Shown here in pieces: positions 6,922 to 18,780 of a stretch of DNA of 20,573 bases. The DNA comes from a virus, in the IMG/VR virus record IMGVR_UViG_3300042731_002243, positions 1 through 20,573 of that record; one strand, written 5' to 3'. Positions within the stretch are counted from its first letter, which is position 1. Every line of letters starts with the position of its first letter. The position numbers and the translations under genes were made by a program. The notes beneath the pieces were generated by a model. That model was given only the letters and a program-made list of their open reading frames with translations, searched no databases and was not told the DNA's origin.

Positions 6922-9900
6922 ATGGCAACATTAATTTCAAGTAAACAGATACAGGGTGTAGTAACTGCTTCAGTAGTTGAAGGAGAATTTTTAGTTTCTG
7001 GCTCATTAGTAGTAACTGGTAGTGGTGTTGTTACTCAAGATTTAACTTCATCTGGTACTATAACTGCAACTGAATTTGTAGGTAGTGGTACTAATCTTAC
7101 GTTTAATGGTACTGGTATTGTATCTGGTTCATCACAACTTACAACAGAGTTTGATTCAAGATATTTAAATGCAAATGCAGATGGTGTAATTAGTGGTTCA
7201 TCACAATTAACATCTTCTTTTGATTCAAGATACATAAATACAAATACAGATAGTGTAGTTAGTGGTTCATCACAAATAAGTTTGAGTGGTGTACAAGGTG
7301 ATACAGATGATGTATCCGAAGGTTCATCAAATCTTTATTATACAGATGCAAGAGTTAAGACAAAATTAACTGCTGAGGGTGTAATTAGTGGAAGTTCACA
7401 AGTTACCATATCCCAAACTGGTGGATATACTGCCTTTAGTTCATCAATTGCTGCATCAGTATCTTCATCAACTTTACCTGAAGGAGTAGTTAGTGGTTCA
7501 TCACAAATTGATTATGATGATATAAGTGATAAACCTGCATTTATCGGAGGCACAAATGTAACTGTAACTTCTGGTAGTGGTGGTATTACAATTAACTCTA
7601 CTGGTGGTGGAGGCGGTGGTGGTTCAACAGATATTTCATATCTGAACCAATATACATCTTCAACCGATGCAAGATTTGGTATTATTGAATCCACAACTGC
7701 ATCTTTAGACCAAAGATTAGACCAAATAGAATCAAACACCGGTTCGTATGGTTCAGGTGGAGATATAAGTTCACTAAATACATTTACATCTTCAATACAA
7801 ACTGAAGTAGATGCAATATCTGCTGCAACATCTTCATATTTAACAGAAACACCCGCGGGAACAATTAGTGGTTCACAACAAATTACTGATTTAGGATTCA
7901 TTAGTTCATCCCATACAGATATAACATCACTTAATTCATATACATCTTCAACAGATACAAGATTAAGTGGTATAGATTCATTTACTTCATCTATTCAAAC
8001 AGAAGTTGATGCAATAAGTGCAACTACTTCATCTTATTTGACACAATTACCAAGTGGGGTAGTTAGTGGTAGTGTTTTAAGAACATTAGATGGTACTGAT
8101 GTTGTAAGTGGTTCAGTATTAAGAACATTAGATAGTACAGATGTAATAAGTGGTTCAGCACAAATAACTGCGTTTGGATTCGTATCAGAAAGTTCATCAG
8201 TCCCTGCAGGAACTATTAGTGGTTCAGCACAAATCACTGCTTTAGGATTTGTAAGTAGTAGTGGAGATAGTACACCTGCTGGAACAATTAGTGGTTCAAA
8301 ACAAATTACTGATTTAGGATTTATTTCTTCATCAGATTCAACAACGTCATTAAACTCATATACATCTTCAACAGATGTAAGATTAACAAATATAGAATCT
8401 ACAACCTCTTCATTAGACCAGAGGTTAGACCAAATAGAATCAAATACTGGTTCTTATAGTTCTACAACTGATATAACATCTTTAAATTCATTTACAGCAT
8501 CTATTGATACTACAATAAAAAGTAAATTAAATACAGAAAATGTTGTAAGTGGTTCTTTATCATCTTCAATTGCATTTGATGGAAATAGAACAGTATCTAA
8601 TACTGATTTACCAAGTGGTGTTTATAACAATAACTTTGGAACGAGTGGTTCAATACAAGATTTTATATCATCAGTATTTTTCCCAAACACGGCACCAACA
8701 ATAAACTCTACACAATTTACAATAGCAGAGTTTTTAACTAGTGGTTCAACTGTGGGTACATTATCAGCAACTGATGCCGAAGGACAGTCAATAACATTTA
8801 CTACACAATCTGCATATACTGATGATAAAGTAAAAGTTTCAACTGGTGGAGTTATAACTTTAACAGAAACTGCAACATCATCATCATATAATACGACATT
8901 AAGTGGTAGTATTCATGCACACGAAGTAGAAGTAACTGCTACAGATACATTTAATAGTTCAACAAATAAAACAATACACATTATAGTTACTCCAAACGAG
9001 GCCCCTAAATTTAGAGAAGGTTCAACTGGTGGTAATGTAATTACAAACGTAACGGCTAGTTTAAATGAGAATAGTTCAGATGGTACTTTAGTAAAAAGAG
9101 TATTTTTTACTGATGGAGAAAGTGATACAATTACAATTGATTCATCTTCAATATCACCTGCAAACCATTTTTCAATAACAAAATATTCAACTTACGTTGA
9201 TATAACACAAAATACAGGTTCATTAGATTATGAAACCTATCCAACATATACATTTAGTATATCTGCATCTGATGAACACTATCAGGCAGGACAAGATAAT
9301 GATGCAATAGTTACTTTACCAATATCAGTAAGTGTTGCAGATAATGCACACCCAACAATCAATAACCAAACTCTTTCATCTATAAATGAAAATAGTTCAA
9401 ATGGTGCAACAGTTGGTTCTATATCAGCAACTGATGTAGATTCAGATACTATAACATTTAGTAATTTTACATTGTATAAACTAGAATTGGATAATTCAAA
9501 TGTTTCAAGTGGTTCATATGGCGGAACATCACAGGCATCAGACCCACATGAAAATCCATTCCAAATGACTTCGGCCGGGCTTGTAACAAGAAAGACCGGA
9601 GTACATATAAATTCTGATTTGATAAACGAATATCAATATACAGTAATCGTAAAAGATAATTTTAACACTGCATCAAATGAGGCAATTGTTACCATACCAA
9701 TTGATGATGATACTCCTGCTAGTATTTCAACGAATGGAACGTTTAGAATTGTTGAATCGGCAGTAAGTGGTGCATTAATTAGAACAAATGCAAATGGATT
9801 TAGTGGTACACAAGCAGATTTAAGTTCAAATCAAAGTGGTACTTTCACAAACTCTTCAAATCCTGCTATTGCAGTTAATAGTTCAAATGGTAACTTATCA

Positions 9901-10905
9901 TTGGCAGTTGATTTAAGTGGTTCAGCAACTCAGAGTGGAGACACAATAACATCTAACGTAACCTTTACAAACACATTTGGTACAACAACTGTACAATCAG
10001 TAACAGCAAACGTAGTTGGTAACAGTGCACCAACAATATCATTTACAAATCAAACTGCAAAATTTGAAACAGATTTGGCATTAGATGGTGTAACTATGGT
10101 AAGTATGAGTGTAAGTGATACAGAAAGTGATACACCATTTTCTGCTTCACTTAGTGGTAGTAATCTAAGTTTAGTTTATTCTAACTCTGATTCAAGTTCA
10201 ATTGGTATTCATGCAAGTGGTAATTTAGCTGCTGGAACTTACACATATACTGTTAAAGTTACTGATTCATATGGAGAATCAACAACATATAGTGATAGAA
10301 GTTTTACAGTTTCAACATCAGCTGATTATGGTAGAGTGTTTGTTTATGATGTAGGATTTAACAACGCAACTTATAACACCGCAGTTGGTATTGATTCAGA
10401 AGATAGTTCAACACCACCGGTTGCAACACCACATTCAAATATTGGATTCTTAGATAAAATAAAAGATGATGATGTAATTGGAGATTCAACATTTACATAT
10501 TCTTATGGTGGAACACAAACTGCAACAAAATTAGGTGAAGCAAGTGGTTCTAATTTACATGATGTATTAAGAACAATGGGAAGTAGTGGTGTAATGAGTA
10601 GAAATTCAGCAAAACACTTTGTGGTTTTATTCCCAAGTGGTTCAGATATGGGAGGCATTCCAACAACTACAACAGATTCATATGGTGGTTCAACTGCAGG
10701 AGAGTATGTGTTAGAGGTAGGAACAGATGGAACTACAATTGATGGTTCTAATACATTAGAGGCATCTGAAATTAATCAAATAACATTAGCAACAGCTCAT
10801 GTAGGTTATACAACCTGGTTTATGGTAGGTGCTACAAACCAAGTTGCAAGTTCAACAAACTTTAACTTAGGATTAAACCCATCATCAGGTTCTGGAGGAG
10901 AATAA
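6922..10905 (+). CDS. Large tail fibre protein with SGSSQ linkers and cadherin-like domains
   Basis: This 1327-residue protein is built from repeats. Residues about 1-225 contain a series of V(V/I)SGSSQ units separated by beta-rich segments. A polyglycine run (about 228-234) follows, then a zone (about 240-580) with short coiled coils of the type LDQRLDQIESNTGS and more SGS units (SGSAQ, SGSKQ, SGSVL). Residues about 590-1130 hold three or four cadherin-like domains, seen from repeated NENSS, ATDxDxD and APTI signatures separated by about 100 residues. The final domain (about 1134-1327) is distinct, Gly/Ser/Thr-rich, and may be the tip. There is no S74 chaperone. No signal peptide is evident. 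Expected role: a trimeric fibre contacting the host surface. Cadherin-like domains suggest carbohydrate or calcium binding, which is inference. Confidence 0.85.
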   Translation: MATLISSKQIQGVVTASVVEGEFLVSGSLVVTGSGVVTQDLTSSGTITATEFVGSGTNLTFNGTGIVSGSSQLTTEFDSRYLNANADGVISGSSQLTSSFDSRYINTNTDSVVSGSSQISLSGVQGDTDDVSEGSSNLYYTDARVKTKLTAEGVISGSSQVTISQTGGYTAFSSSIAASVSSSTLPEGVVSGSSQIDYDDISDKPAFIGGTNVTVTSGSGGITINSTGGGGGGGSTDISYLNQYTSSTDARFGIIESTTASLDQRLDQIESNTGSYGSGGDISSLNTFTSSIQTEVDAISAATSSYLTETPAGTISGSQQITDLGFISSSHTDITSLNSYTSSTDTRLSGIDSFTSSIQTEVDAISATTSSYLTQLPSGVVSGSVLRTLDGTDVVSGSVLRTLDSTDVISGSAQITAFGFVSESSSVPAGTISGSAQITALGFVSSSGDSTPAGTISGSKQITDLGFISSSDSTTSLNSYTSSTDVRLTNIESTTSSLDQRLDQIESNTGSYSSTTDITSLNSFTASIDTTIKSKLNTENVVSGSLSSSIAFDGNRTVSNTDLPSGVYNNNFGTSGSIQDFISSVFFPNTAPTINSTQFTIAEFLTSGSTVGTLSATDAEGQSITFTTQSAYTDDKVKVSTGGVITLTETATSSSYNTTLSGSIHAHEVEVTATDTFNSSTNKTIHIIVTPNEAPKFREGSTGGNVITNVTASLNENSSDGTLVKRVFFTDGESDTITIDSSSISPANHFSITKYSTYVDITQNTGSLDYETYPTYTFSISASDEHYQAGQDNDAIVTLPISVSVADNAHPTINNQTLSSINENSSNGATVGSISATDVDSDTITFSNFTLYKLELDNSNVSSGSYGGTSQASDPHENPFQMTSAGLVTRKTGVHINSDLINEYQYTVIVKDNFNTASNEAIVTIPIDDDTPASISTNGTFRIVESAVSGALIRTNANGFSGTQADLSSNQSGTFTNSSNPAIAVNSSNGNLSLAVDLSGSATQSGDTITSNVTFTNTFGTTTVQSVTANVVGNSAPTISFTNQTAKFETDLALDGVTMVSMSVSDTESDTPFSASLSGSNLSLVYSNSDSSSIGIHASGNLAAGTYTYTVKVTDSYGESTTYSDRSFTVSTSADYGRVFVYDVGFNNATYNTAVGIDSEDSSTPPVATPHSNIGFLDKIKDDDVIGDSTFTYSYGGTQTATKLGEASGSNLHDVLRTMGSSGVMSRNSAKHFVVLFPSGSDMGGIPTTTTDSYGGSTAGEYVLEVGTDGTTIDGSNTLEASEINQITLATAHVGYTTWFMVGATNQVASSTNFNLGLNPSSGSGGE

Positions 10906-11627: not shown

Positions 11628-13712
11628 ATGGCTCAAACTATAAAACACAGAAGAGGTAAATTAGAGCGTATTGCAAGTATAACTCCGATTAGTGGTGAAT
11701 TAATCATAGCTTCGGGTTCTGACTTATCAGTACACCAATCTGGTTTACTGTTTGTTGGAGTTGATGGAAATGTATTAACACCTTCAAACAAAATTTTAAC
11801 AGGTTCGGCTACCGCACCCGATGTAACTGGTGGTTCATTCGACCATTCGGTTGACGGTATTCCTTACTATGAAACCGATGCTAAGAAATTAACAATTCTT
11901 GGTAAAGGTGGTAACACAGATGTAACATTGGCACATGGACAAATTGATTTCAATGGTTCAGGTATCGTATCATCATCTTCACAAGTATCTGAATTAGCTG
12001 GTATTAACGATTCAACTTTAACTATTACAGCTGGTGATGGTTTAAAAACAGGCGGTACATTCACAAGTAACCAAAGTGGAGACAGTTCAGTAACATTAGA
12101 TATTGATGTATCTGATTTTGCTGGTGCAGGTTTAGAAGATGATGGTTCAGAAAATTTAAGAATTGCTGCAGGTGGTGTAACCAATGCGATGTTAGATGGT
12201 TCAATCGCTAATGCAAAATTAAGTAATTCTGCTATTACAATTGCTGGTACATCTACTTCATTAGGTGGTTCAATCACATTAGCTACTATTACAAATGGTA
12301 GTGGAATTCAATCGGGTTCTATTACAAATGCTGATTTGGCTGGTTCAATCGCTGATAGTAAATTAAACACTATTTCAACTGCAAATAAAGTATCTTTATC
12401 GGCTCTTGATATTGATGGTGCGAGTGCTCTAGGTGGTGCTCCTGCTGGTGCTGATTTGATTCCTATTGATGATGGTGCGGGTGGTACTAACAAATCTATG
12501 ACCGTATCAAACTTACAGACATACATGCAATCAAACCTTTCATTCTCAAGTGGAGATATTGAAGGTGTAACTGCAGGAAGTGGTATTACTGGTGGTGGTA
12601 CATCAGGTACTGTTGTAGTAGGTGTTGATTCTGGTTCACTTGCTGGTAGTGGTTTAGCTGCTCCTGCGGGTGGTGCAATTAACGTAAATGTTGATGATTC
12701 TTCAATTGAAATTGACTCTGATACATTACAAGTTAAGGCAAGTGGTATTACAAATGCCATGTTAAATGGTTCAATTGCAAATGGAAAACTTGCAAACTCG
12801 GCTATTACAATTGCTGGTACATCTACTTCACTAGGTGGTTCAATTACTTTAGCAACAATCACAAATGGTAGTGGAATCCAATCAGGTTCTATTACAAATG
12901 ATGATTTAGCTGGTTCGATTTCGAATGATAAACTTGCTGGTTCAATCGCAAATGGTAAATTAGCTAACTCGGCAATTACAATTGCTGGTACATCTACTTC
13001 ATTAGGTGGTTCAATCACAGCCGATACAATTGCTGGACAGATTTCAGCTGGAACAATTACTAACGCACAATTAGATGGTTCAATCGCAAATTCAAAACTT
13101 GCAAATGATGGAATCACAATCGGTTCTACTGATACTTCATTAGGTGATACAATCACTGCAATTGTTGGATTAACAGATTTAGATTTAGCTGCTGGAGATA
13201 GAACAATCTTTGATACAGTTGGTGCAAATACACTTACAATTGGTGCTTCTTCAACTGATATCGTACTACCTGGTAACTTAACAGTTAGTGGTACTACAAC
13301 ATATATCGATACTACAAACGTAGCAATTGGAGATAACATTCTTGAATTAAATGCTGCTGGTAGTAACGATGGTGGTATTTATGTAAGAGATGCTGAAGGT
13401 ACTTCAAATTCTGGTTCATTACTATGGAATACAGGTGATGACAGATGGATTGGTGGAGTTAAAGGTTCAGAAAAAATCTTAACTTTCTACAATGCAGACC
13501 CAACAACTAATAACGTACAGAAGGTAAATTCTTCTAACCTATTAGTAGATTCAGCAATTTCTGATAATGGTACTGCAGTAACAATTAGTTCTAACTTAAT
13601 TATAAGTGGATTAACTGCTTCTCAATTAGTTGTAACTAATGGTTCAAAACAATTAGTATCTTCTACTGATATTTCATCTCTAACACTAACGTTAGATGGT
13701 GGAACGTTCTAA
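11628..13712 (+). CDS. Tail fibre protein with repeated ITIAGTSTSLGGSIT modules
   Basis: The 694-residue protein starts MAQTIKHRRGK, the short beta domain also seen at the start of two other fibres here and resembling the N-terminus of the major tropism determinant; it probably attaches to the tail. Most of the body (about 180-510) consists of repeats with GSIANxKL, AITIAGTSTSLGGSIT and GSGIQSGSITN elements, suggesting an elongated beta-rich shaft. Near residues 550-625 is a module with NLTVSGTTTYIDTTNVAIGD followed by LLWNTGDDRWIGG, common in phage fibres and related to two modules of the next gene. It lacks an S74 chaperone and ends LTLTLDGGTF. AAAGGA (11611-11616) lies upstream of the start. 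A strong terminator follows, so this fibre may be expressed separately. Confidence 0.85.
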   Translation: MAQTIKHRRGKLERIASITPISGELIIASGSDLSVHQSGLLFVGVDGNVLTPSNKILTGSATAPDVTGGSFDHSVDGIPYYETDAKKLTILGKGGNTDVTLAHGQIDFNGSGIVSSSSQVSELAGINDSTLTITAGDGLKTGGTFTSNQSGDSSVTLDIDVSDFAGAGLEDDGSENLRIAAGGVTNAMLDGSIANAKLSNSAITIAGTSTSLGGSITLATITNGSGIQSGSITNADLAGSIADSKLNTISTANKVSLSALDIDGASALGGAPAGADLIPIDDGAGGTNKSMTVSNLQTYMQSNLSFSSGDIEGVTAGSGITGGGTSGTVVVGVDSGSLAGSGLAAPAGGAINVNVDDSSIEIDSDTLQVKASGITNAMLNGSIANGKLANSAITIAGTSTSLGGSITLATITNGSGIQSGSITNDDLAGSISNDKLAGSIANGKLANSAITIAGTSTSLGGSITADTIAGQISAGTITNAQLDGSIANSKLANDGITIGSTDTSLGDTITAIVGLTDLDLAAGDRTIFDTVGANTLTIGASSTDIVLPGNLTVSGTTTYIDTTNVAIGDNILELNAAGSNDGGIYVRDAEGTSNSGSLLWNTGDDRWIGGVKGSEKILTFYNADPTTNNVQKVNSSNLLVDSAISDNGTAVTISSNLIISGLTASQLVVTNGSKQLVSSTDISSLTLTLDGGTF
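12180..12362 (+). repeat. Fibre repeat unit, copy 1
   Basis: This 183-base segment matches 12750-12932 at a fixed offset of 570 bases (190 codons) with no gaps that I could see. Differences are mostly at third codon positions. It encodes TNAML through the GSIANxKL, AGTSTSLGGSIT and SGSITN elements. Confidence 0.8.
12750..12932 (+). repeat. Fibre repeat unit, copy 2
   Basis: Second copy of the unit at 12180-12362. A third, partial copy begins 171 bases after the GSIAN part of this one. Confidence 0.8.
12939..13018 (+). repeat. Fibre repeat unit, partial copy 3
   Basis: This segment repeats the GSIANGKLANSAITIAGTS part of copy 2 and the following LGGSIT, then diverges. A more worn fourth start (GSIANSKLANDGITIGSTDT) follows at 13077. 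Confidence 0.75.
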
Positions 13713-13854: not shown

Positions 13855-16800
13855 ATGGCAGCTATTATACAATTAAGGAGAGGTTCATCCCCTTCATCGC
13901 TTTCTTATGGTGAAATATATGTAAACGATGACTCGGCATCATTGGTACTGAGATTATCAGGTTCGGGTGATATCGTAACATTAACAAAATTAGAACAAAA
14001 AAATCATGGTAACCTATGGATTGATGGTGATATAACAGCATCATCTATATCAGCAAGTGGTGATGTAAGAATCGGTGGCCAATTATTTTTAGGAGATGAG
14101 GCAACTGATGATATAGTTGTACAAGGTTCATTAAGTTCATCTTTAATACCAGAATCAAATGCTGCACATGATTTAGGTTCTTCTACAAAAAATTGGAAAG
14201 ACCTTTATGTTGGAACAATATATGCAACAAGTACAGTATTATCTGGTCAATCAAACCTATCAAGTTCAGCACAAATTACCGCTTTTGGATTCATAAGTGG
14301 TTCAGATTTAGATTCTTTAAATTCATATACATCCTCAACTGATATTAGATTAACAAATCTACAATCAACTACATCATCGTTTGATGTAAGAATTACACAA
14401 TTAGAAACCGATACAGGTTCACAAGACCAAAGATTAGATAGATTAGAATTAGAAACTGGTTCTCTAAACACTACTAATACTGCACAAAATACTAGATTAA
14501 CAACATTAGAAACTAAAACTGGTTCTTTAGATAGTGATATTACAACTATTAATGGTAGATTAGGTAATGTTGAAACTACTACTGCATCATTTGATAGTAG
14601 ATTGGATAATTTAGAATCAACATCAGGTTCATCTAACACCTTCCAGGCAGATGCTACAATTCAATTAAACAATATAGAATCAACTACTTCCTCTTTTGAT
14701 GGAAGATTAGATAATATAGAATCTACTACTTCATCTTTTGATGGTAGATTAGATAACTTAGAATCTACTACTGCATCTATTGATGTTAGAATAAATGGTA
14801 TTGATACTACAACCGCTTCTTTTGATGGTAGATTAGATATTTTAGAAGCAAAAAGTACAACAATTGGAACTGTAACATCTTCACTTGATTCAAGATTAGA
14901 TGTTCAAGAGGCAAAAAGTACAACAATTGGAACTATAACATCTTCTTTTGATGGAAGATTAGATAATATAGAATCTACTACCTCATCTTTAGATAGTAGA
15001 GTAGATGCACTAGAAACTAGTACAGCATCCTCAGACATAAGTGTAGATTCATTAAATACATTTACATCATCATTTAACACTGCAATTACATTAAATAGTG
15101 ATGATGTAACAGTATTAGGAAACTTAACAGTACAAGGTACACAAACACAACTTAATACATCAACTCTTAATATAGAGGATAAAAATTTACTTATAGCAAG
15201 TGGAGCAGCAGATTCATCAGCTGCAAATGGAGCAGGTATTACAATTGATGGTGCAGATAAAACATTAACATGGGACCACTCTAATACTAACTTTGTATTT
15301 GATGCAAGAGTAAGTTCATCAGTTGGATTTGCTGGAGATGGTAGTGGATTGACGGGTGTAACTGCAAATGCAGTTGCATTTAATAATATAACAAGTAAAC
15401 CAACATTAATTAGTGGTTCATCTCAAATAGACCACGATGCCACAGACAACTATGTTGCAGGTGAACACTTCTTACAATCAGCTATTACAACTGTGGGTAC
15501 TATTGGTACTGGTGTTTGGCAAGGTACTGTTATCGACAAACAATATTTAGATGATGAAGTTTTAAATACTTCATTAAATTCATATACTGCAAGTAATGAT
15601 ACTGCAGCAACTGTACAAAATAATAGATTATCAAGTTTAGAATCAACAACTTCTTCTTTAGATGGAAGATTAGATATTCAAGAGGCAAAAAGTACAACAA
15701 TTGCAGGTGTAACATCTTCACTTGATTCAAGATTAGATAATGTTGAAACTACTACATCTTCACTTGATTCAAGATTAGATAATATTGAAACTACTACATC
15801 TTCTTTAGACCAGAGATTAGATAGATTACAATTAGAAACTGCTTCTTTAAATACATCTGTAACTACAATCAATGGTAGATTAGATAATGTAGAATTAACT
15901 ACTTCCTCTTTTGATGGTAGATTAGATAACTTACAGGCAACAACTGAATCACTTGACCAAAGGTTAGATAGAATAGAATTATACACATCATCTAACGATA
16001 CAAGTTCATTCAATGCAAGATTTACAAATATAGAATCTACAACTTCTTCATTCGATAGTAGATTAGACCAATTAGAAACAAATACTGGTTCTCTTGGAAC
16101 TGCAGCATTCTTCAATGTTACGAGTTCTATATTTGGTGACTCAACAGTAGTACCAACTGCAGCTGCAGTAAACGATGCAATTGTTTCAGCGGGTGGTGGT
16201 GATATTACCGCCGTTGGTGCTGGATTAGGTTTAAGTGGTGGTGGAGTTTCGGGTGATATTACTCTTAACTTAAATACTGGCTCAACTCACTTTACACAAG
16301 GTGTAACTGCAATTGCAGGTGGAGCCGTTGATTTAACATCATTAAACTCATATACTTCATCAAATGATATTAAGATAACAAACATTCATTCTACAACTGC
16401 TTCATTCGATAGTAGATTAGATAACTTAGAAGGTGCAAGTGGTTCATACTTAACTGCTCACCCAAATATAAGTGCTGGTTCAAACATATCACAAGATAAT
16501 TCAGATGGTACTGTATTACAAGATTTAACAATCACATTAGATTCTAATGGACATGTAACTACTGCAACTTCTGCTACTGTAAATTTAGATGGAAGATATT
16601 ATACTGAAACAGAATCGGATACTTTATTTACAAAAAAAGGTGGACAAGGTGTAATTAGTGGTTCTTCACAAGTAAACGCTGATTCAATTACAAACTTTGA
16701 TGCAAATGTAGATACGAGATTAGATGCTAAAACAGTAATTAGTGGTTCTTCACAAGTAGTATTAGATAATGCAGATAAGACAGGATTTACTGCTGATGAT

Positions 16801-18780
16801 GTAATTGAAGGTTTAACTAATCTATACTATGATAACAATAGAGTAAAAACAAAATTAAACGAAGAAACTGTAATTAGTGGTTCATCTCAAATAGACCACG
16901 ACCAAACTACAAACTTTAATGCAAATGAACACTTTACACAAGCAAGTATTACAACTGTGGGTACTATCGGTACTGGTGTTTGGCAAGGTACTGTAATTGA
17001 TAAAACATATTTAGATGATGAGGTTTATAATACTTCACTAAATTCATATACTGCATCAAACGATACTAAGATAACAAATATTCATTCATTTACATCATCA
17101 TTTAATGATTCAATGTCAATTGATGCTGGTGGTGTAACAATTCTTGGTAATTTAAGTGTACAAGGAACACAAACTCAACTTGATACAACTACATTAAACG
17201 TACAAGATAAAAATATTACAATAGCAAGTGGGGCAGCAGATTCCGCGGCAGCTGATGGTGCAGGTATTACAATTGATGGTGCAAATGAAAGTTTAACATG
17301 GGACCACTCTGCTTCAAGATTCCAATTTAGTGATGATTTACATATTGTAGGAAATATAACTGTAAGTGGTAACGTAGATGGAATTGATATTTCGGCAATA
17401 GATACTGATGATGTAAGTGAGGCAACAAACAAATACTATACAGATGCAAGAGTAAAAACTAAATTAGATGCAGATGGAGTTATAAGTGGTTCATCTCAAG
17501 TAAACGCAAATAGTATTACAAACTTTGATGCTAATGTAGATACAAGGTTAGATGCCAAAACAGTAATTAGTGGTTCATCTCAAGTGGATGGTGCAAGTAT
17601 TACTAATAAATCAGTTTCATTCGGTGGAGTATCTGTAAACTTAGGTTCATCAGATGCAACTCCTGCATTTGATTTATCAGATGCAACTGCGTATCCAGGT
17701 GATAGTAGTTTAACAACATTAGGTACAGTAACAAGTGGTAATGTAACTGCAATTCTACCAACTGGTGTAATTTCAGGTTCGAGTCAACAAACATTCGAAT
17801 CTTCATCATTCGCAGAAACCGCATCTCTTGCAATTCATACTTCAGAATGGATATTAGGTGCAGATGGTTCTAATCATTATGTATTTACCGGACCAGGACA
17901 CTTAACTGGTTCAAATGACCCTGCTATTTACTTAACAAGAGGTCAAAAATATAGATTCACAAACAAATCAGGTGGACATCCATTTAGAATTCAATCAACT
18001 GCAAATGGTTCTGCAGGTACACAATATAACAATGGTGTAACAAATCAAGATGCAGGTAACAATACAACTTTGACATTTGATGTTCCATTTAACTCACCTG
18101 ATACTCTTTATTACCAATGTACTGCTCATGGTAATATGGGAGGCCCAATTTATATTACAAATCCAACCTCATATGAAAGAGTAGGAAGTGGAATCATATC
18201 AGGTTCATCTCAAGTATCTCTTGGTGGTGATTTAAGTGGAGGTGCAAACGCTGCAACAGTAGAAAAAGTTCAAGGTGTATCTTTAACAAGTGATGAGGCA
18301 ACTCAGTTAGCAAATATTGGAAGTACTACAATATCTTCAGCTCAATGGGGATATGTTGGAAATCTTAACCAAGATTTAAGAACAAGTGATAGTGTACAGT
18401 TTGGTAAAGTTGGTGTAGGTGGTGCAAGTGATGCAACATATGAATTGAAAGTAACAGGTGATGTTGGAGCAACAGGAGATATTGTTGCATATATTTCATC
18501 TGATAAAAGGTTAAAAGATAATATACAACCAATTGAGGGGGCTTTAGATAAAGTTTCTCAAATAAGTGGTAACACTTTTGATTGGAATGAAGAAAAACAG
18601 AATATTTATAAAGGAAAGGATTATGGTGTAATTGCACAAGAAATCCAAGAGGTTATGCCTGAACTCGTAGATACGAGAGAAAATGGTTACCTTGCAGTAA
18701 AATATGACAAAATTGTTCCTTTACTGATTGAATCAATTAAAGAATTGAAAAAAGAGATTGAGGAACTGAAATCTAAATAG
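13855..18780 (+). CDS. Giant tail fibre protein with coiled coils, cupredoxin-like domain and S74 chaperone
   Basis: The 1641-residue protein is the largest in the window. Residues about 1-50 form the MAAIIQLRRGS... attachment-type domain. Two arrays of 14-residue coiled-coil repeats lie at about 161-392 and 586-746. NLTVQGTQTQL modules start at 423 and, as NLSVQGTQTQL, at 1099. VGTIGTGVWQGT modules lie near 545 and 1040. A cupredoxin-like domain (about 1330-1437) carries His1375, Cys1422, His1425 and Met1428. The C-terminus (about 1545-1641) is a peptidase S74 intramolecular chaperone with SDKRLK giving the Ser1549/Lys1554 pair and a final helical Lys/Glu segment. In this family the chaperone drives fibre trimerisation and then cleaves itself off before the catalytic Ser, which would release about 93 residues. 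Expected role: a long host-recognition fibre. Confidence 0.88.
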   Translation: MAAIIQLRRGSSPSSLSYGEIYVNDDSASLVLRLSGSGDIVTLTKLEQKNHGNLWIDGDITASSISASGDVRIGGQLFLGDEATDDIVVQGSLSSSLIPESNAAHDLGSSTKNWKDLYVGTIYATSTVLSGQSNLSSSAQITAFGFISGSDLDSLNSYTSSTDIRLTNLQSTTSSFDVRITQLETDTGSQDQRLDRLELETGSLNTTNTAQNTRLTTLETKTGSLDSDITTINGRLGNVETTTASFDSRLDNLESTSGSSNTFQADATIQLNNIESTTSSFDGRLDNIESTTSSFDGRLDNLESTTASIDVRINGIDTTTASFDGRLDILEAKSTTIGTVTSSLDSRLDVQEAKSTTIGTITSSFDGRLDNIESTTSSLDSRVDALETSTASSDISVDSLNTFTSSFNTAITLNSDDVTVLGNLTVQGTQTQLNTSTLNIEDKNLLIASGAADSSAANGAGITIDGADKTLTWDHSNTNFVFDARVSSSVGFAGDGSGLTGVTANAVAFNNITSKPTLISGSSQIDHDATDNYVAGEHFLQSAITTVGTIGTGVWQGTVIDKQYLDDEVLNTSLNSYTASNDTAATVQNNRLSSLESTTSSLDGRLDIQEAKSTTIAGVTSSLDSRLDNVETTTSSLDSRLDNIETTTSSLDQRLDRLQLETASLNTSVTTINGRLDNVELTTSSFDGRLDNLQATTESLDQRLDRIELYTSSNDTSSFNARFTNIESTTSSFDSRLDQLETNTGSLGTAAFFNVTSSIFGDSTVVPTAAAVNDAIVSAGGGDITAVGAGLGLSGGGVSGDITLNLNTGSTHFTQGVTAIAGGAVDLTSLNSYTSSNDIKITNIHSTTASFDSRLDNLEGASGSYLTAHPNISAGSNISQDNSDGTVLQDLTITLDSNGHVTTATSATVNLDGRYYTETESDTLFTKKGGQGVISGSSQVNADSITNFDANVDTRLDAKTVISGSSQVVLDNADKTGFTADDVIEGLTNLYYDNNRVKTKLNEETVISGSSQIDHDQTTNFNANEHFTQASITTVGTIGTGVWQGTVIDKTYLDDEVYNTSLNSYTASNDTKITNIHSFTSSFNDSMSIDAGGVTILGNLSVQGTQTQLDTTTLNVQDKNITIASGAADSAAADGAGITIDGANESLTWDHSASRFQFSDDLHIVGNITVSGNVDGIDISAIDTDDVSEATNKYYTDARVKTKLDADGVISGSSQVNANSITNFDANVDTRLDAKTVISGSSQVDGASITNKSVSFGGVSVNLGSSDATPAFDLSDATAYPGDSSLTTLGTVTSGNVTAILPTGVISGSSQQTFESSSFAETASLAIHTSEWILGADGSNHYVFTGPGHLTGSNDPAIYLTRGQKYRFTNKSGGHPFRIQSTANGSAGTQYNNGVTNQDAGNNTTLTFDVPFNSPDTLYYQCTAHGNMGGPIYITNPTSYERVGSGIISGSSQVSLGGDLSGGANAATVEKVQGVSLTSDEATQLANIGSTTISSAQWGYVGNLNQDLRTSDSVQFGKVGVGGASDATYELKVTGDVGATGDIVAYISSDKRLKDNIQPIEGALDKVSQISGNTFDWNEEKQNIYKGKDYGVIAQEIQEVMPELVDTRENGYLAVKYDKIVPLLIESIKELKKEIEELKSK
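14335..15030 (+). repeat. First array of 14-residue coiled-coil repeats
   Basis: The encoded protein repeats a 14-residue unit of the form RLDNIESTTSSFDG, equal to two heptads, many times with small insertions (for example EAKSTTIGTVTSS). Leu/Ile/Val and Phe/Leu recur at heptad spacing. At DNA level neighbouring units are near copies, for example around 14690-14775. Confidence 0.85.
15409..15597 (+). repeat. DHD/GTIGTGVWQGT module, copy 1
   Basis: This stretch encodes LISGSSQIDHD, then TTVGTIGTGVWQGTVIDKQY and SLNSYTASND. Copies occur at about 16872-17066 in the same gene and 19326-19468 in the next gene, so the module has spread between fibre genes. Confidence 0.8.
15610..16092 (+). repeat. 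Second array of 14-residue coiled-coil repeats
   Basis: The same two-heptad unit as in the first array (for example RLDNVETTTSSLDS) is repeated about ten times, with LDQRLDRLQLETAS variants. The EAKSTTI insertion of the first array is also present, showing duplication between the arrays. Confidence 0.85.
16444..16677 (+). repeat. HPNISAGSNISQ module shared with the next fibre gene
   Basis: This segment encodes HPNISAGSNISQ, LTITLDSNGHVTTAT and LDGRYYTETESDTL, and is nearly identical in protein to 19123-19343 in the following gene. Long DNA identity (for example acaatcacattagattctaa, then tggaca) indicates recent duplication or recombination. Confidence 0.85.
16872..17066 (+). repeat. DHD/GTIGTGVWQGT module, copy 2
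   Basis: Second copy of the module at 15409-15597, with SGSSQIDHDQTTNFNANEHF followed by the same GVWQGTVID and SYTASND elements. It is closer to the copy in the next fibre gene over the first half (DHDQTTNFN) and to copy 1 over the second half (YLDDEV). Confidence 0.8.
17842..18165 (+). other. Cupredoxin-like domain encoded within the giant fibre
   Basis: Residues about 1330-1437 contain YLTRGQKYRFTNKSGGHPFR (1359-1378), a beta pair ending in the first His, and LYYQCTAHGNMGG (1418-1430), the Cys-x2-His-x2-Met loop of small blue copper proteins. The first His to Cys distance is 47 residues, as in plastocyanin, and the C-x2-H-x2-M loop is the amicyanin type. All four classical type-1 copper ligands are present. 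This supports a cupredoxin fold; whether copper is bound is inference. Confidence 0.75.

Follow-up and report, generated by a model that had tools for sequence, protein, structure and literature searches.

Why should the tail fibre of a marine bacteriophage contain a segment with all the ligands of a small blue copper protein, and what might such a segment do on the virion? The question is raised by a long fibre gene in the window, i.e., the whole stretch of 20,573 nucleotides analysed here, taken from a 20.6-kb virus record. The answer that we regard as probable is that the segment, a cupredoxin β-sandwich with a putative type-1 copper site, serves the tails of marine phages as a structural or adhesive module stabilised by copper. 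Overall, the observation made in the preliminary description of this DNA is confirmed and its interpretation is partly supported, since copper binding and the role of the module are what we infer from the fold and the ligands.

The fibre gene and its candidate ligands

Upstream of the fibre gene are a T4-type major head protein (phrog_138, E 5.9e-72) and a match to a head-tail adaptor (phrog_211); a second fibre, of 429 residues, comes after it, with tail-fibre PHROG matches and no cysteine. The nearest named-phage relatives of the head protein occur in Microcystis phage Mel-JY01 (50.7%) and Flavobacterium phage immuto (48.2%). The features of the fibre gene are the following:

13855..18780, plus strand: tail fibre gene of 1641 aa (open reading frame and translation), with a repetitive shaft and a C-terminal Peptidase_S74 domain
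17503..18290, plus strand: variable cassette region containing the module, without DNA match in the module-less relative L118 (blastn of the window against L118)
17848..18159, plus strand: cupredoxin-like domain W1332-T1435, about 104 residues (family HMM boundaries, AlphaFold2 model, fold matches)
17977..17979, plus strand: H1375, candidate first equatorial copper ligand (paired by hhalign with the His of bacterial PF00127 proteins)
18118..18138, plus strand: C-x2-H-x2-M loop (C1422, H1425, M1428), retained in 144 of 160 distinct domains
18118..18120, plus strand: codon of C1422
18127..18129, plus strand: codon of H1425
18136..18138, plus strand: codon of M1428
18496..18777, plus strand: Peptidase_S74 intramolecular chaperone and C-terminal helix (Pfam; domain start SSDKRLKDN at aa 1548)

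The four proposed ligands and their spacings of 47, 3 and 3 are borne out by the translation of the open reading frame, and the HMM boundaries of the domain deviate by at most six bases at each end from the span first given (17842-18165). The domain, which ends at T1435, also lies N-terminal of the S74 chaperone as had been described, Peptidase_S74 (PF13884, E 2.9e-19) being recognized at aa 1549-1605 of a fibre that also matches tail-fibre PHROGs. A chance motif is ruled out by the rarity of the pattern H-x(30-60)-C-x2-H-x2-M, found in one of 20,000 shuffled versions of the fibre sequence and only once in the six frames of the window, at the site of the domain. C1422 is the sole cysteine of the 1641-residue fibre, so that a binuclear CuA cupredoxin, which needs two Cys ligands, was discarded.

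Three other open frames were noted in the window: a 1327-aa ORF (6922-10905) with a weak PHROG match only and no Cys, a 694-aa ORF (11628-13712) with neither PHROG match nor Cys and, antisense to the latter, a 343-aa frame on the minus strand (12308-13339) which is probably a by-product of composition.

The predicted fold and the nature of the metal

The AlphaFold2 model of the domain, built from an alignment of 90 sequences, those of the window domain and its relatives, consists of eight strands (pLDDT 89.3, pTM 0.85). Searched against the PDB with Foldseek, it gave 190 matches at E ≤0.001, and all 50 of the 50 listed possess a cupredoxin fold, including copper nitrite reductases, rusticyanin, amicyanin, AcoP, pseudoazurin, multicopper oxidases and factor V, the A domains of which derive from cupredoxins. 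VIA-align superposed the model on the first domain of the Hyphomicrobium nitrite reductase (2dv6_A, residues 24-137; Z 11.7, rmsd 2.8, 99 residues) and on rusticyanin (2cal; Z 9.9, rmsd 2.1, 96 residues). Even the poor model obtained without an alignment (pLDDT 53) had a Foldseek list restricted to copper proteins.

Comparisons of profiles point in the same direction. The family profile matched 19 PDB sequences (up to E 10), 18 of them with a cupredoxin fold, among which nitrite reductase, plastocyanin, amicyanin, auracyanin, pseudoazurin and laccase, each match being weak (best E 0.0072). Aligned by hhalign with seven bacterial PF00127 proteins (E 2.7e-5, probability 74.5), the domain pairs H1375, C1422 and H1425 directly with their counterparts and M1428 after a two-residue gap. 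Among the 90 relatives, the Pfam families Copper-bind and At5g54830-like match 16 (best 2.9e-4) and 26 (best 6.9e-6) sequences, respectively, and the NCBIfam amicyanin family matches 10 (best 1.4e-4). Taken singly, the window domain scores 15.6 bits against Copper-bind (PF00127), under the gathering cut-off of 21.2, and is not filed as a member for that reason; its NCBIfam scores for halocyanin (0.012) and amicyanin (0.093) are far under the cut-offs, and none of its 14 matches in a PDB sequence search (best E 0.07) is a copper protein. The cupredoxin fold suspected in the preliminary description is thus supported by structure prediction, by the copper-protein matches of Foldseek and VIA-align and by the profile comparisons, and the full type-1 ligand set by the predicted fold, the hhalign pairing of all four residues and their conservation in homologues.

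In predicted fold, ligand types and C-x2-H-x2-M loop, the domain resembles the small blue copper proteins (amicyanin, plastocyanin, pseudoazurin, rusticyanin) and the first domain of the nitrite reductase of Hyphomicrobium denitrificans. The His-to-Cys spacing of plastocyanin is likewise 47 and the loop of amicyanin is C-x2-H-x2-M, both as in the window domain. However, identity in the fold alignments is below 20%, the first ligand is followed by proline (HP) and not by asparagine (HN), and the domain belongs to a virion fibre instead of a soluble carrier, its copper being only predicted.

It is quite unlikely that the site, although real, would hold zinc or iron in the virion, or stay empty until a host compartment is reached. 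Cupredoxin sites can take zinc in vitro. Metal in phage tails has so far been discussed for iron, which PMC11705849 reports in phage fibres, with iron-binding HxH sites proposed in T4 gp37. Against such a metal, the combination of His-Cys-His-Met with a cupredoxin fold is that of type-1 copper sites, and the profile matches are copper proteins. The gp37 sites also differ in motif and fold, and an iron-binding fibre of the HxH type was rejected, as no His-x-His occurs in the 1641 residues of the window fibre.

Conservation and joint loss of the ligands

The survey set of 229 records, less two duplicates of the window, yielded 188 domain matches, corresponding to 160 distinct sequences. Besides the 144 domains with His, Cys, His and Met (HCHM), ten have both His and the Cys replaced, eight of which retain the Met, two have a changed Met (one with its first His outside the aligned part), and four are truncated. 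All ten equatorial losses are therefore triple, and no copy misses just one or two of these ligands; the loss of all three together is what is expected of one metal site. The proportion of 10/160 is not a natural rate, as one of the searches used a ligand-less query. Similarly, retention in the pattern-scanned loci is partly selected because the patterns include ligand residues: those of two scans of relatives, one of them limited to the best 80 of 544 relatives, included HPF and left out C1422, H1425 and M1428, and one of the six patterns of another scan included the C-x2-H-x2-M loop. In a set obtained by tblastn without patterns, 18 named phages taken from 359 records and spread over the ranking, all 21 intact copies are HCHM, including those of the Prochlorococcus podovirus P-GSP1 and the Methylophilales phage Melnitz-1.

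Clustering of 172 domains at 50%, after removal of truncated domains and of those shorter than 75 residues (loci) or 65 residues (named phages), left 27 representatives, i.e., 20 HCHM, one HCHE and six triple losses. The only invariant columns of the 20 divergent HCHM representatives are the four ligands and Y1420. Under free permutation, the joint loss in 6 of 27 has an exact figure of about 1e-11, which overstates independence because the sequences are related.

The ligand cysteine is the sole Cys in 58 of the 124 viral carrier proteins, and the carriers are otherwise poor in cysteine; outside the domains, 246 Cys were counted in 95,077 residues (136 proteins of at least 300 aa). For a lone conserved cysteine within the cupredoxin site of an extracellular protein, a metal is the best explanation.

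Nine proteins carry a triple-loss copy, accompanied by an HCHM copy in six of them (L019, L203, L007, L199, L090, L082) and by none in L202, L205 and L226. Residues 232-330 of L019 offer an example of a ligand-less copy from which both His and the Cys have disappeared together. The existence of such copies implies that the fold can serve without metal, and their persistence in 10 of the 160 distinct domains, a set enriched by the ligand-less query, would suit a plain β-sandwich adhesin whose metal site is an inherited relic unused in the virion. This reading is nevertheless extremely unlikely, since no half-decayed equatorial set was found and conservation among the intact copies is highest at the ligand columns; a useless relic is disfavoured by the loss of the equatorial ligands as a set. 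The earlier argument that retention of the ligands speaks against a relic is accordingly strengthened, and a free loss of Cys or His among homologues was not encountered, though the ten ligand-less domains have lost the whole set.

Mobility of the module within the fibre

L118 is a syntenic relative of the window, sharing 82.7-93.0% of its DNA positions at either end and 72-78% inside the shaft, with an S74 domain 99% identical at the protein level. Its fibre of 1583 aa is devoid of both the module and any Cys, and the DNA similarity to the window ends at 17502 to restart at 18291. Another relative, L134, retains the module, with 92.4% DNA identity over 17433-18156, and diverges between the module and S74. 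Among 80 S74 relatives, 52 have at least 300 upstream in-frame residues, and the module occurs in two of these (L133, L134) and is absent from the other 50. Its absence from L118 and from 50 of 52 S74 relatives indicates that the module is an optional cassette in this fibre.

The gene order, with the module about 113 residues before S74, agrees with the earlier suggestion of a place near the tip of the window fibre, a placement which does not generalise, as the module ends gp9 in cyanophages. The S74 domains of known fibres are cleaved off after folding, and the module would then sit roughly 110 residues from the mature end. An exchangeable cassette near the distal end of a fibre, as host-range parts often are, might suggest that the module recognises, through its copper-loaded surface, one given molecule on the host, the metal being there for specificity and not for stability. 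We hold this unlikely: the same module ends gp9 of the cyanophages, annotated as the connector between baseplate and fibre, and a single receptor for all these places would be improbable.

Occurrence in cyanophage gp9 and other phage proteins

A tblastn search of 50,697 phage records placed the domain in 340 at 1e-5 and in 359 at 1e-2, almost all of which are cyanophages. In P-SSM7 it forms the C-terminal end of gp9, a protein which starts with T4_gp9_10_N (PF07880). The N-terminal 294 residues of this gp9 matched 547 records and were covered to at least 80% in 287, and the whole gp9 was covered to at least 80% in 287 records as well, an equal number in which the records were not paired one by one. 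The coliphage matches, among those listed, span only about the first 58 residues, and the gp9 of T4 likewise matches at its start alone. From these coverages, the gp9 of cyanophages would seem to combine a T4-like start with the module as its end, in about 287 records as judged from sequence matches.

The window fibre matches phrog_677, annotated as baseplate wedge tail fiber protein connector, at positions 305-409 of the profile (E 2.1e-36). The C-terminal domain of cyanophage gp9 (PHROG 677) is the same domain by sequence, with all ligands kept; the window protein, however, is a long S74 fibre and not a gp9, and the name of the PHROG does not refer to copper. PF07880 does not figure among the 25 families listed, of 46, for the window fibre.

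The domain also occurs in other fibres (P-SSM2, S-SCSM1) and in S-SKS1. It stands between collagen-like repeats in one locus (L012), and some loci hold more than one copy. The GenBank label of the module-bearing protein of S-SCSM1 is 'virion protein'; for this phage, PMC9602691 reports 45 virion proteins identified by mass spectrometry. In frame 2 of P-SSM7, a gene adjoining gp9 forms a 1375-aa open frame, residues 389-456 of which match the domain with its H, C, H and M.

Proposed role of the module

The segment would thus be a mobile cupredoxin domain, its mononuclear type-1 site (His, Cys, His and an axial Met) intact, which has spread by shuffling to many virion proteins of tailed marine phages. 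The fibre would fold in the reducing cytoplasm with its lone thiol intact and, after release, each module would take up one copper ion from sea water. Bound by both the H1375 loop and the C-x2-H-x2-M loop, the copper would fasten one to the other and so lock the β-sandwich, resulting in a rigid and stable globular module on the fibre or at the fibre-baseplate joint, which would serve assembly and adhesion, not electron transfer.

Type-1 copper proteins are classic electron carriers, and the fold neighbours of the domain include rusticyanin and amicyanin, which could speak for a redox or electron-transfer role, e.g., as a sensor or trigger on a redox-active surface of the host. Such a role is very unlikely, as the PHROG scan of ten neighbouring proteins recognised no redox partner gene and nothing hints at an electron path along the fibre. 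The presence of the module at different places of the tail favours the structural or adhesive role over a receptor-specific or redox one, and its occurrence at the end of gp9, annotated as a baseplate-fibre joint, makes a general role more likely than one that depends on the tip or on a single receptor.

The fold and the type of site are already known; new, in the open-access literature searched, are the place of the domain in phage tail proteins and the retention and joint loss of its ligands. That literature yielded no description of a cupredoxin domain in any virion protein of a phage (subscription papers and bioRxiv being outside its scope), and InterPro or UniProt may already label some of these proteins. 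If true, a type-1 copper site in the gp9 domain of hundreds of cyanophage records would be a new virion cofactor and would link the infectivity of phages with a trace metal of the ocean. Copper can limit or poison the same cyanobacteria. A broader proposal, possible though doubtful, is that surface-ocean tailed phages, including many of the sequenced marine cyanomyoviruses, possess tail blue copper sites whose copper occupancy controls rigidity, adsorption or triggering; infection would then depend on sea-water copper, and virions would form part of the marine copper-ligand pool.

Cellular homologues and other structural matches

Homologous HCHM domains occur in secreted-looking bacterial proteins from Marivirga, Flammeovirgaceae and Acidobacteria (L110), with 43-47% identity in the tblastn segments of L105, L106, L107 and L110. 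These carriers differ from the window fibre in being cellular, in having an N-terminal signal-like sequence and in lacking a fibre shaft. The domain closes the proteins of Marivirga, where it accompanies DUF7282, and a protein of Flammeovirgaceae, where it accompanies CHRD. Of 198 genomes from the Marivirga class, 16 were matched by a profile of distant members (A3), several of the matches being weak. In the Marivirga proteins of L105 and L107, four to six DUF7282 stretches precede the terminal domain, a pairing from which a metal-linked function of DUF7282 might be suspected. Finally, in BFVD the model matched three short 'beta-sandwich proteins' (A0A481Z6J5, A0A481Z7Q7 and A0A481YVH3) from deep-sea Pithovirus and Marseillevirus bins, with TM values of about 0.65-0.67.
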